Below are positions 1,586 through 8,498 of a stretch of DNA of 14,243 nucleotides, one piece after another; positions within the stretch are counted from its first letter, which is position 1, and every line of letters begins with the position of its first letter. The position numbers and the translations under genes were made by a program. The stretch is from contig JACQDO010000136.1 of the NCBI GenBank assembly GCA_016201085.1, positions 1 through 14,243 on the forward strand. The letters run 5' to 3'. Below the pieces are notes generated by a model. It did not search any database. It saw only the letters and a list, made by a program, of their open reading frames with translations, and had not been told where the DNA came from. The stretch comes from Hyphomicrobiales bacterium. GTDB taxonomy: Bacteria; Pseudomonadota; Alphaproteobacteria; Rhizobiales; Xanthobacteraceae.

Positions 1586-2278
1586 TCACAGCGCCAGCGC
1601 GGCATTGCCTTTGAACAGCACCGGGCCGGTCGGCCGGCCGGTGGGCGAGCCGGTGGCGGGCTCAAGCGTGATCTCGAACAACTGATCGGTGCGCAGTGCC
1701 GGCAGATCCTTGAGCGACAGTCGCAGCGTGCGCGCCTGGTTCATCAGACCGACCGACACCGGTCCGCGTTCGCGGCTGGGCAGCGTCCACACTTCCAGCG
1801 CCTTGCCTTCCGGCACGTTGATCGCGGTCAGCGGCAGCAGCACGGCGCGGCCGTCCGCGAAAGTGTGCACCACCGCGCCAGCGCGATTGCCGTCGAGCAG
1901 CACCGCAATCATCACCGGCTGTTGGCGCGCGGCCTTGATGGCGAAGCCGAGGCCGACCGCCAGCACCAGCGCCGCAAGGCTTGCGCCGAGCGCGGTGACG
2001 CGCAGCGCGGCAAGGTTATTCCAGAACCGCGTCCAGGCCGACGGTCCGATGGCGACAGCCGCGCGCGGCATATCGGCTTCGATCCTGCGCCACAGCTCGT
2101 CGCCCGCTGGCTGCGGCGCGGTTGCGTCGTCGAATTCGGCAAACCGCGCGCGCCATTGCTCGACCTCGCGGGCAAAGCCCGGGTCGGCGGCAAGCCGCCG
2201 CTCGGCCATGGCCTTTGCCTCGCCTTCGAGCAGGCCGAGCGCATATTCGCCGGCCAGTGCTTTATCGTCTGGCGTCAT
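1586..2278 (-). CDS. RskA-type membrane anti-sigma factor
   Basis: Predicted single-pass membrane anti-sigma factor that would hold the adjacent ECF sigma factor inactive. The 230 residues divide into three parts. A cytoplasmic N-terminal anti-sigma region begins EYALGLLEGEAKAMAERRLA and contains a WRARFAEFD helix. One transmembrane segment lies at about residues 93-114. A C-terminal RskA-like domain at about 120-230 follows, with VEVWTLP-like (LEVWTLP, 161-167) and VSVGLMN elements. No HxxxCxxC zinc motif is present, which fits the RskA class rather than the ChrR/RsrA class. The chosen ATG overlaps the sigma stop by 4 bp (ATGA), so the two are probably translationally coupled. The same frame stays open further upstream through the sigma gene, but that part is not coding. 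The activating signal cannot be read from the sequence. Confidence 0.9.
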   Translation of the reverse strand: MTPDDKALAGEYALGLLEGEAKAMAERRLAADPGFAREVEQWRARFAEFDDATAPQPAGDELWRRIEADMPRAAVAIGPSAWTRFWNNLAALRVTALGASLAALVLAVGLGFAIKAARQQPVMIAVLLDGNRAGAVVHTFADGRAVLLPLTAINVPEGKALEVWTLPSRERGPVSVGLMNQARTLRLSLKDLPALRTDQLFEITLEPATGSPTGRPTGPVLFKGNAALAL

Positions 2279-2826
2279 CCCATGCACTCCTGCAATGAGA
2301 TCAGGCTGCGTCGCACCCAGCTTTTCACCGTGCCGAGCGGCACGCCGAGCTTGCCGGCGAGTTCGCCGTGCGACAGGCCATGCACATAGGCCAGCACCAC
2401 CACGGCGCGGCGTTCGGCATCGAGCCGTTCGAGGCAGCGACGCAATGCACTCGCTTCCGGCAGATGGGCGAGCGCGTTTTCGGTCGCAGGGGCGGCCTCC
2501 TCCGCACGATCGTCGTCGGCGATGAACCGGCCTTCGTCGCGCAGGATCGAGAGCGCGCAATTGCGCAGGACGGTGTAAAGCCAGGTGCGGGCCGCGCCTT
2601 TTTGCGGATCGAACGAGCGCGCCGCCCGCCACACCCGCATGAAGGTTTCCTGCACGGCTTCTTCCGCCAGATCCTGCCGTCGCAGCATGCGCCGTGCCAC
2701 ACCGATCATGCGGCCGGCTTCGAGGTCGTAGATGACGCGCAGGGCCGTACGGTCGCCGGCCGCGCAACGGGCAATGGCCGCGGCAACTTGCGCTTCCGTC
2801 GCATTGTCCTGCGCTGAGCCGGTCAT
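2275..2826 (-). CDS. ECF-type RNA polymerase sigma factor
   Basis: Alternative sigma factor of the extracytoplasmic-function (sigma-70 region 2 plus region 4 only) type, 183 residues. Region 2 spans about 29-98, with DLAEEAVQETFMRVWRAA and FDPQKGAARTWLYTVLRN. Region 4 spans about 126-180 with the helix-turn-helix LSHGELAGKLGVPLGTVKSW. The linker (about 100-125) is short and acidic/Ala-rich. The closest relatives by appearance are SigK/RpoE-like ECFs paired with RskA anti-sigma factors. A possible GAGG ribosome-binding site lies 10 nt before the ATG. The gene overlaps the anti-sigma gene by 4 bp and is divergent from a DUF4394 gene. Its upstream region carries a motif shared with that gene's promoter region, which suggests autoregulation. 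The exact ECF group is not assigned. Confidence 0.95.
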   Translation of the reverse strand: MTGSAQDNATEAQVAAAIARCAAGDRTALRVIYDLEAGRMIGVARRMLRRQDLAEEAVQETFMRVWRAARSFDPQKGAARTWLYTVLRNCALSILRDEGRFIADDDRAEEAAPATENALAHLPEASALRRCLERLDAERRAVVVLAYVHGLSHGELAGKLGVPLGTVKSWVRRSLISLQECMG

Positions 2827-2882: not shown

Positions 2883-2917
2883 CATAAGGGGTACCCCGCC
2901 CACCCCCGTTTGGATGC
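2883..2917 (-). promoter_or_regulatory. Candidate ECF-dependent promoter of the sigma/anti-sigma operon
   Basis: Read on the - strand, GCATCC (2917-2912) is followed after 17 nt by GTACCCCTTATG (2894-2883). The same two boxes occur on the other strand in front of the divergent DUF4394 gene. The spacing fits a -35/-10 pair, and the -10-like box is 56 nt upstream of the sigma start codon. The function as a promoter is inferred. Confidence 0.55.
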
Positions 2918-2950
2918 AGGCCTGCTCACAAATTTGTTATGGCCGCCGGC

Positions 2951-2986
2951 GCATCCGGCAGCCCGCTCCGCTCCGTACCCCCTATG
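2951..2986 (+). promoter_or_regulatory. Candidate ECF-dependent promoter of the DUF4394 gene
   Basis: GCATCC (2951-2956) is followed after 18 nt by GTACCCCCTATG (2975-2986), 41 nt before the DUF4394 start codon. The downstream box differs at one of 12 positions from the one in front of the sigma gene, and the upstream box is identical. This would give a leader of roughly 40 nt containing the AGGGAGAG ribosome-binding site at 3016-3023. Confidence 0.55.
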
Positions 2987-3027
2987 TCGTCGCATCTAGA
3001 GGCGACAGCAACATCAGGGAGAGTGCG

Positions 3028-3822
3028 ATGAAATTCCGGACATTGATGGCCGCGTCCGCCGCGGTTCTGCTCAGCGCCGTGGCCGCGCAGGCCACCGAGG
3101 TCGCCGCGCTATCGGGCGACAACACCATCTCGATCATCAACACCACTGCCAAGAAGGTCACCAAGACCTGGAAGATCCAGGGCGTCAGCGGGCGCGTGCT
3201 CGGCATCGACGTGCGCCCGGCCGACAACATGCTCTATGCCGTAAGCGCCGAGGGCGGCGTCTATACCGTCGATCTCGCAACCGGCAAAGCGACGATGAAG
3301 TCGAAGCTGGAGAAGACGCTGAACGCCGGCACCTCGGCCACCATCGACTTCAATCCGGTCGCCGACCGTCTGCGCTTGATCGGCAGCGACGGCATGAATC
3401 TGCGCGCCAACGTGGATGACGGCAAGGTCATCATCGACGGCCAGCTCAAGTTCGCCGAAATCGACATGCACAAGGGCGAGAAGCCGAACGTGGTCGCCGG
3501 CGCCTACATCAACTCAGTCAAGGGCGCCAAGGAAACCGCTTTGTACGACATCGACGCCACCATCGGCGGTCTGCTCAAGCAGGCGCCGCCGAATGAAGGC
3601 ACCCTCAATGCGGTCGGCAAGCTCGGTATCAAGGTCACCACCGTCGCCTTCGACATCTGGTCGGATGGCAGCAAGAACGAGGCCTGGCTGATGTCCGGCG
3701 ACTGGCTGCTCAGCGTCGATCTCGCCACCGGCAAGGCGACGCCCGCGGTTCAGATCAAGGGCGTGAGCGGTATCCGCGATATCGCCATCCTCCCCGCCAT
3801 GGCGAACATGAAGTCCATGTAA
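3028..3822 (+). CDS. Secreted DUF4394 domain protein
   Basis: Exported protein of 264 residues, function unknown. The start at 3028 is chosen because AGGGAGAG lies just upstream and the product then opens with a clear signal peptide (residues 1-22, cleavage after AQA). The upstream in-frame extension to 2833 would bury that signal. The mature part matches DUF4394, a repeat-rich, probably beta-propeller-like fold. Recognisable elements are GIDVRPADNMLYAVS, a YTVDLATGKAT repeat that recurs near the C-terminus as SVDLATGKAT, FNPVADRLRLIGSDGMNLR, and LYDIDATIGGLLKQAPPNEG followed by GTLNAVGKLG. It is divergent from the ECF sigma gene and carries the same candidate promoter motif, so it is the likely target of that sigma factor and acts in the periplasm or outside the cell. 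Confidence 0.9.
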   Translation: MKFRTLMAASAAVLLSAVAAQATEVAALSGDNTISIINTTAKKVTKTWKIQGVSGRVLGIDVRPADNMLYAVSAEGGVYTVDLATGKATMKSKLEKTLNAGTSATIDFNPVADRLRLIGSDGMNLRANVDDGKVIIDGQLKFAEIDMHKGEKPNVVAGAYINSVKGAKETALYDIDATIGGLLKQAPPNEGTLNAVGKLGIKVTTVAFDIWSDGSKNEAWLMSGDWLLSVDLATGKATPAVQIKGVSGIRDIAILPAMANMKSM

Positions 3823-8195: not shown

Positions 8196-8498
8196 ATGAT
8201 TGATTTTGGCGCGATTGTCGGCTTCGACTGGGATGACGGCAATATTCAAAAAAGCGCCGAAAAACATGGCGTGAGTCCGCTCGAAGCCGAACAGGTCTTC
8301 GTTGACCCGCGCCTGCTGATCCTGACCGACGACGACCACAGCGGAGATGAAATTCGCTTCCACGCTTACGGACAATCGGCCGCCGGTCGCCTGTTACTCG
8401 TGAGCTTCACGCTTCGTCAGAGCGAAACGATGATCCGAATCATTTCCGCCCGCAACATGAGCCGAAGGGAGCGACAACGCTATGCCGAAGAAACTTAA
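8196..8498 (+). CDS. brnT: BrnT family ribonuclease toxin
   Basis: Predicted RelE-like mRNA-cleaving toxin of the BrnT (formerly DUF497) family, cytoplasmic, neutralised by the antitoxin encoded next. The 100 residues are family length. Typical elements are FDWDD (10-14), EKHGVSPLEAEQVFVDP (22-38), the basic [16 protein letters not shown] near the C-terminus (81-96), and a central GRLLLVSFT strand. The start ATG at 8196 has no Shine-Dalgarno sequence: the AT-rich inverted repeat ends only 3 nt before it, so translation may be leaderless or nearly so. It overlaps the antitoxin gene by 17 bp. The pair lies between trmL and hemF, both ordinary housekeeping genes, which suggests insertion. Confidence 0.92.
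   Translation: MIDFGAIVGFDWDDGNIQKSAEKHGVSPLEAEQVFVDPRLLILTDDDHSGDEIRFHAYGQSAAGRLLLVSFTLRQSETMIRIISARNMSRRERQRYAEET

Follow-up and report, generated by a model that had tools for sequence, protein, structure and literature searches.

Candidate back-to-back promoters linking a SigK-like sigma operon to a divergent DUF4394 gene

An ECF sigma factor gene and a gene of the DUF4394 family stand back to back in a Hyphomicrobiales genome (assembly GCA_016201085.1), and the short DNA between them carries two promoter-like sites of nearly the same sequence in opposite orientation. What reads these sites, and does the pairing tie the DUF4394 gene to the sigma factor beside it? The window, that is the whole stretch of 14,243 nucleotides that was analysed, is contig JACQDO010000136.1 (C302 in our numbering) of a 3.66 Mb source assembly in 526 contigs that is 88.57% complete.

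The divergent locus and its two sites

The features on which the argument depends are as follows.

1586..2278, − strand: RskA-type anti-sigma factor gene (Pfam RskA_C, E 7.5e-23, 81.7 bits)
2275..2826, − strand: ECF sigma factor gene, SigK-like, 183 aa (Pfam Sigma70_r2 and Sigma70_r4_2; nearest solved chain 4nqw)
2883, − strand: predicted start of the sigma operon transcript (from geometry, +11 from the G of GTA)
2892..2894, − strand: −10 core GTA of the sigma/anti-sigma operon (pattern match; relatives)
2912..2917, − strand: −35 box GCATCC of the sigma/anti-sigma operon (pattern match; kept in relatives)
2928..2940, no strand: A/T-rich tract common to both promoters, with a putative UP-element-like role (A/T enrichment in relatives)
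2951..2956, + strand: −35 box GCATCC of the DUF4394 promoter (pattern match; relatives)
2975..2977, + strand: −10 core GTA of the DUF4394 promoter (pattern match; relatives)
2986, + strand: predicted start of the DUF4394 transcript (conserved G at +11 from the G of GTA)
2989..3006, + strand: stem-loop (GTCGC...GCGAC) near the 5' end of the predicted DUF4394 leader (leader folding and arm pairing)
3028..3822, + strand: DUF4394 gene, putative target (Pfam DUF4394, E 8.2e-71)

The anti-sigma and sigma genes share four bases (ATGA), as read from the sequence, and the DUF4394 gene diverges from this operon with both sites in between. The sigma factor holds regions 2 and 4 only. The best of its 16 matches among solved chains is 4nqw, SigK of M. 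tuberculosis (E 2.9e-20), and its C131 and C181 line up with cysteines 150 and 200 of that chain (counted by eye), which correspond to SigK residues 133 and 183 once a constant offset of 17 is taken off. According to the accessible part of PMC7509140, equivalents of SigK C133/C183 occur in 94% of ECF18, in 56% of ECF19 and in <2% elsewhere. With the NCBIfam SigK model NF007228 the sigma factor reaches 124.3 bits, the cut-off of the model being 226. Helix 1 of the anti-sigma factor, KALAGEYALGLL, is alike by eye at 7 of 12 positions to the AS19-1 anti-sigma helix consensus HTLAGAYALDAL given in the accessible text of PMC7406223.

The product of the DUF4394 gene begins with a stretch that is signal-peptide-like by eye. 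Its AlphaFold2 model is all beta with a mean pLDDT of 86.4 (below 50 at residues 1-22 and 258-264) and matches generic beta-propellers at a query TM of about 0.4-0.5, and the protein is thus a predicted beta-propeller; as the fold matches are generic, we draw no function from them. Sequence searches of the PDB with the anti-sigma factor and with the DUF4394 protein returned nothing. Elsewhere in the window there is a small ORF at 8196-8498 (+), which we take, by eye, to resemble a BrnT-type toxin; it matched no family in an NCBIfam search.

The first-pass annotation had described divergent sites GCATCC-N17 and GCATCC-N18 at promoter-like distances from both start codons, and both were found exactly so: GCATCC-N17-GTACCC on the − strand at 2889-2917, 62 bases from the sigma ATG (2826), and GCATCC-N18-GTACCC on the + strand at 2951-2980, 47 bases from the DUF4394 ATG (3028). 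The pattern GCATCC-N16-18-GTACCC has exactly these two matches in the window and none in 200 dinucleotide shuffles. The pair could still be an accident, or a mere relic of the common descent of the intergenic region: the sites are only two, and in the source genome the similar pattern GCATCC-N15-19-GTACC occurs 6 times against 4 for the reversed control, so that the window alone is thin evidence. The comparison with relatives decides the matter.

Conservation and anatomy of the probable promoter pair

DUF4394 was found in 68 of 198 genomes of the family (E 1e-3), in 47 of 297 of the order and in 22 of 289 of the class (E 1e-20), the source genome being included at each level. Eight weak DUF4394 rows (E above 1e-9), one at family level and seven at order level, were left out, duplicate loci (L038, L039, L040, L042 and also L128) were removed before counting, and gene starts in relatives were projected from tblastn alignments and not taken from annotation. 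Among 53 distinct loci with a divergent sigma gene (duplicates removed, window included), GCATCC-N15-18-GTA stands on both sides in 43, on the DUF4394 side only in 5, on the sigma side only in 1 and on neither in 4. A cultured relative, Tardiphaga robiniae LMG 26467, carries the module with both boxes exact; its locus, L042, was removed as a duplicate and lies on the contig that also appears as L028. Addition of the order-level loci gave 82 divergent loci from 14 numbered families and one named record without a number. In these, GCATCC-N16-18-GT precedes DUF4394 in 79, the sigma operon in 70 and both, as the same promoter element before operon and target, in 67; with at most one mismatch the counts rise to 81, 77 and 76.

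At the stricter of these two levels, 100 shuffle sets reached maxima of 6 (DUF4394 side), 4 (sigma side) and 0 (both), and 30 permuted −35 boxes searched on the real DNA reached 5, 2 and 0. With one mismatch allowed, one or more permuted boxes reached high counts (35 on both sides at most), probably because they partly overlap the real box, and for this reason we rely on the stricter level. The surrounding region diverges across the 14 numbered families while the boxes stay. The site pair is therefore far beyond chance, and an origin in coincidence or shared descent alone has a negligible probability.

The pattern extends to the class level, where 21 further loci were found. All six with a detected divergent sigma gene have both boxes within one mismatch. 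Four of the other 14 (L229, L232, L235 and L238) have GCATCC with GT and no sigma gene detected nearby, and a fifth match, at L244, lies within a misplaced gene start. At L236 the sigma and anti-sigma genes lie upstream on the same strand and the box has one mismatch. In tandem loci, where DUF4394 is followed by the sigma gene, DUF4394 has the box in four of five, three of the four being of one genus. Some divergent loci deviate: the sigma-side box is not recognisable at L125, no normal DUF-side −10 was seen at L130 and L131, and four loci of genus g24 have GCATCG with GTT on the sigma side and GTT on both sides.

The anatomy of the promoters was read from sets dereplicated at 75% (68 DUF-side and 66 sigma-side rows). 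Both sides have a common core of TGCATCC, 17-18 bases and GT(A), with an A/T tract upstream. Sites were chosen by the six box bases, GT and a preference for a following A; neither the T that precedes GCATCC nor the A/T tract 11-20 bases upstream entered into that choice, yet each shows enrichment on the two sides alike. The consensus GCATCC...GTACCC proposed at first thus keeps its GCATCC and its GT, and its −10 part should shrink to GTA, as GT(A/T/C) is what the two sides have in common among relatives. Likewise, the match of the downstream strings at 11 of 12 positions holds in the window, where the two 12-base strings have one differing position, and does not hold in relatives, in which the CCCCnTATG continuation is partly kept on the DUF4394 side and is not conserved on the sigma side. 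A G stands 11 bases after the G of GTA in 75% of the DUF-side rows, and an A at this position in 47% of the sigma-side rows. The conserved G points to 2986 (+) as the likely start of the DUF4394 transcript, and the same rule would place the other start at 2883 (−).

Inverted and close as they are, only 33 bases apart in the window, the GGATGC...GCATCC arms might instead form the dyad operator of a dimeric regulator. Where both boxes are present (75 loci), anything from 19 to 74 bases separates one −35 box from the other (a 76th value, from L151, is spurious and was set aside), whereas each arm keeps its 17 or 18 bases to its own GT(A) in nearly all loci; a sigma-side site at L153 has 16, with gaps of 16-19 examined and GTGT cases read at the second GT. 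Furthermore, tandem loci such as L157 keep the DUF4394 box with no divergent sigma gene. A variable distance between the −35 boxes with a constant −35/−10 spacing argues for a pair of promoters and not for a fixed dyad operator, which we reject as very improbable. The third base of the −10 also differs from A on the two sides together: in seven loci the sigma-side base is not A, and in all seven the DUF4394-side base is non-A too, against 7 of 71 of the others. This joint change, like the box kept in tandem loci, speaks for one and the same reader of the two sites. The seven come from three groups of relatives, L125, L130, L131 and L151 are left out of this table, and Fisher test values on the loci are only indicative as relatives are not independent. 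Separately, at L012 (G055) an inverted-repeat insert, seen by eye, lies between the sigma promoter and its gene and puts 209 bases between the −10 and the gene start; L134 and L135 also carry repeated stretches in this interval.

A further possibility is that the sites are promoters of another sigma factor, for example one of ECF29 type that would read the GCATCC region as a −10. The sigma-side site of the window does read GCATCCAA, and this is the −10 of S. meliloti RpoE8 (ECF29), with GGGAAC as its −35, in the accessible part of PMC6180224. Upstream of GCATCC there is no conserved GGGAAC-like box but an A/T tract only, and on these grounds the ECF29-type −10 is rejected; the GT(A) is kept 17-18 bases downstream, the anti-sigma factor is of RskA type and the adjoining sigma factor is closest to SigK. 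The remaining evidence on this reading comes from genomes in which the dedicated sigma factor was not detected, which are treated in the next section.

The reach of the promoter core was assessed by genome-wide pattern counts with a reversed-pattern control, a search that misses sites deviating from the pattern. In 18 genomes there are 115 matches to TGCATCC-N17-18-GTA and 85 to the reversed pattern; the module itself accounts for 21 of the 115. In the 12 module-bearing genomes the other sites number 54 against 60 in the control, and the source genome has two matches, one of them belonging to the module. These counts show no excess of sites in the 18 genomes beyond the module's own. A wide regulon is hence rejected, and the circuit is apparently private, consisting of one operon and one gene.

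Taken together, both sites are very probably back-to-back promoters (TGCATCC at −35, 17-18 bases, GT(A) at −10) read by the adjoining ECF sigma factor and driving its own operon and DUF4394, with the binding of this sigma factor to both sites deduced from sequence comparison. In the mechanism that we propose, the membrane-bound RskA-type anti-sigma factor would hold the sigma factor until an envelope signal releases it, perhaps by proteolysis or a redox change of RskA. The freed sigma factor would transcribe its own sigma/anti-sigma operon, giving positive feedback and reset, and also the divergent DUF4394 gene, the predicted beta-propeller product of which would be secreted.

The transcript of the target may have a feature of its own. 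The predicted leaders of DUF4394 are more stably folded than shuffled versions of themselves (mean z −1.24, 43 of 81 below −1), and no such signal was found in sigma-side leaders (mean z 0.03, 8 of 59 below −1). The arms of the short stem pair better within loci than when permuted between loci (14.4 against 11.02, sd 0.33, about 10 sd, for 60 of 71 leaders after removal of near copies and in a permutation that ignores relatedness). The stem sequence differs between groups of relatives, so the stem-loop covaries; its likely role would be to steady the DUF4394 messenger. An outer helix between the leader start and the Shine-Dalgarno region also scored higher within loci (11.21 against 10.05 permuted, sd 0.28). 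We do not claim this helix: of the two pairings that served as controls, one was itself slightly raised (10.18 against 9.45, p 0.006), and most of the 5' arm of the helix falls before the predicted transcript start.

DUF4394 genes without the dedicated sigma factor

In 16 of the 68 family genomes DUF4394 lacks a divergent sigma gene, G074 holding only a weak homologue. The dedicated sigma factor was not found in the other 15 genomes, which were searched for sigma and RskA_C (two of them incomplete, 58% and 69%), hits at E 1e-25 being 28-41% identical or absent. These 15 are a subset of 25 loci without a cognate sigma gene in the locus-wide scan; L132 (contig edge), the weak L080, L165 and L167, and also L037, L136, L146, L150, L152 and L166 stand outside the comparison. 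Exact GCATCC with GT remains in two of the 15 (L026 and L077), and L027 has GCATCT.

Boxes before GTA at gaps of 15-18 were then compared in 17 sigma-less rows (the 15, L136 and L037), in the 82 divergent-linked loci and in 56 regions upstream of FAS1 (fasciclin) genes (L168-L223). The FAS1 regions are part of 90 FAS1-bearing family genomes with a few others, some genomes appearing twice and two regions overlapping. Exact GCATCC occurs in 2 of 17 sigma-less, 65 of 82 divergent-linked and 4 of 56 FAS1 rows. GAAACC within one mismatch occurs in 9 of 17, 0 of 82 and 43 of 56, respectively, and in shuffles of the sigma-less and FAS1 rows in 0.4 of 17 and 2.2 of 56; the FAS1 boxes have the form GAAAC(C/T/G)-N16/17-GTA. 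Four of the nine sigma-less rows (L069, L072, L078 and L079) read GCAACC, a box that differs from GCATCC by one base as well, and only the other five can be assigned clearly to GAAAC: GAAACC or GAAACT in L020, L023, L025 and L075, and AAAACC in L136. With the GCAACC rows counted, GCATCC within one mismatch is present in 8 of 17.

Two of these rows have peculiarities of their own. The DUF4394 match of L079 (G056:C1:2816432-2817159) consists of two abutting pieces in different frames, so that the gene may be broken or the sequence wrong. L037, a MAG contig with the nearest DUF4394 (83%), has ACATCC in place of GCATCC, as if decaying, and no sigma gene was found within its 6.8 kb of sequence.

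This distribution bears on the reading by another sigma factor from both directions. In its favour, the box is kept, with the cognate sigma gene not detected, in G182, of the window's own genus, and in four class-level loci; in G162 and G017, GCATCC stands before FAS1 genes that adjoin a paralogous SigK-RskA pair. Against it, the exact box is mostly gone where the dedicated sigma factor is absent. With the missing GGGAAC-like box, promoters of another sigma factor are unlikely, though less so than a dyad operator. The first-pass annotation had proposed a candidate consensus for the adjoining sigma factor and a self-contained circuit in which DUF4394 is the target. Contrary to the refuting outcome that it named, both boxes are conserved in orthologous sigma/DUF4394 pairs, and the proposal gains further support from this usual loss of the exact box and from the genome-wide counts.

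Where might DUF4394 belong after the loss of its sigma factor? In the DUF4394 protein tree, which omits the weak homologues L080, L165 and L167, several sigma-less genes fall inside sigma-linked groups: L023 lies inside a fork of support 98/95, L020 stands with L025 and L016 with L026, and L136 is placed likewise; the placement of L027 and L037 has weaker support. This suggests repeated loss of the dedicated sigma factor. A count of tree labels compared two named groups with 82 rows uncounted, and so is no test of repeated loss.

Nineteen family genomes have both the dedicated sigma factor at DUF4394 and a FAS1 gene. A GAAAC box precedes FAS1 in 13 of these, every one of which has GCATCC at DUF4394; the remaining six (G011, G062, G080, G128, G165 and G185) lack the GAAAC box at FAS1, and in three of them the FAS1 box is GCATCC-like. 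With no dedicated sigma factor at the copy and a GAAAC-box FAS1 in the genome, DUF4394 has GAAACT in G045, GAAACC in G075 (one genus with G045) and in G095, and AAAACC at the second copy of G360. The latter genome offers an internal control, its other copy (L151), beside a divergent sigma gene, having GCATCC. FAS1 and DUF4394 share TGCATCC-N16-GTA in G162. In G017, GCATCC and GCATCT precede FAS1 and DUF4394 with N17 and GTAACTG, a site that the box scan missed, probably owing to a gene start placed too far upstream. G347 (L152, 394-3234) has the series sigma, RskA_C, fasciclin and DUF4394 by Pfam, and in G461 (L146) FAS1 stands directly before DUF4394 by tblastn, with a short anti-sigma match and the sigma gene out of view. 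A handover is opposed by G182, where FAS1 lacks a matching box and DUF4394 keeps GCATCC, and by G014, which matches only loosely; in G031 the box was found at neither gene. A sigma factor reading the GAAAC boxes was not found in the sigma-less genomes, where FAS1 stands beside a paralogous SigK-RskA pair in 3 of 13 RskA_C stretches.

The presence of GAAAC boxes at some sigma-less DUF4394 genes, as in most of the FAS1 regions compared, suggests passage to another ECF regulon. We hold it evenly poised that DUF4394 and FAS1 are interchangeable or partner outputs of SigK/RskA-type systems, and that after loss of the dedicated sigma factor, apparently several times, DUF4394 was rewired into the FAS1 regulon through a GAAAC box or a sigma-RskA-FAS1 series. 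If true, one orphan secreted beta-propeller would have been handed repeatedly between the promoters of ECF regulons.

The module among known ECF systems

What appears to be new here is a probably autoregulated SigK/RskA-like module with a defined promoter core and DUF4394 as its apparent sole output. It supplies an ECF subgroup with a candidate promoter consensus, none having been found in a partial literature survey, and gives a first regulatory context for DUF4394, a family not named in any paper within the literature searched. With a regulon of seemingly one operon and one gene, the question of the target is within reach of one reporter assay, and relatives that naturally lack the sigma factor are ready tests of promoter rewiring.

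Other ECF systems have related arrangements with different details. The BcrS-AbcS/bcrXQP system (ECF16) of Brucella melitensis also has divergent ECF/anti-sigma and target operons with back-to-back matching promoters, but it belongs to another ECF group, has TGTAAC and CGAA boxes and drives other target proteins; the accessible part of PMC8315932 gives 14 genomic pattern matches. About 55% of ECF sigma factors are autoregulated and AAC at −35 was regarded as a hallmark, according to PMC8103513, and the module's GCATCC departs from that hallmark. The accessible portions of PMC3597554 and PMC4821874 gave no useful motif. The FAS1 genes of the same family, with GAAAC-N16/17-GTA, are alike in their ECF-like −35/−10 geometry and share their box with some DUF4394 genes, but have GAAAC instead of GCATCC at −35.

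The closest likeness is to the SigK-RskA-MPT83/MPT70 systems (ECF18/ECF19) of mycobacteria and Yersinia. The accessible text of PMC7509140 describes a SigK site before mpt83, the ECF18/ECF19 grouping and a redox role of the cysteines. Both systems pair an ECF sigma factor with an RskA_C anti-sigma factor and have an output gene with its own site, and the SigK cysteines align. The two differ in −35 box and in output: the mycobacterial box is CCATCC and that of the present module TGCATCC, and the output here is DUF4394, not a fasciclin. A fasciclin-type target gene beside the sigma gene is typical of known SigK modules, though we do not treat it as defining. No such neighbour is present at the window sigma gene, where DUF4394 holds the target position, and a search of the 88.57% complete source genome for FAS1 gave no hit at 1e-15. 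By this analogy, the window module probably works like SigK-RskA-MPT83, with a predicted beta-propeller replacing the fasciclin.
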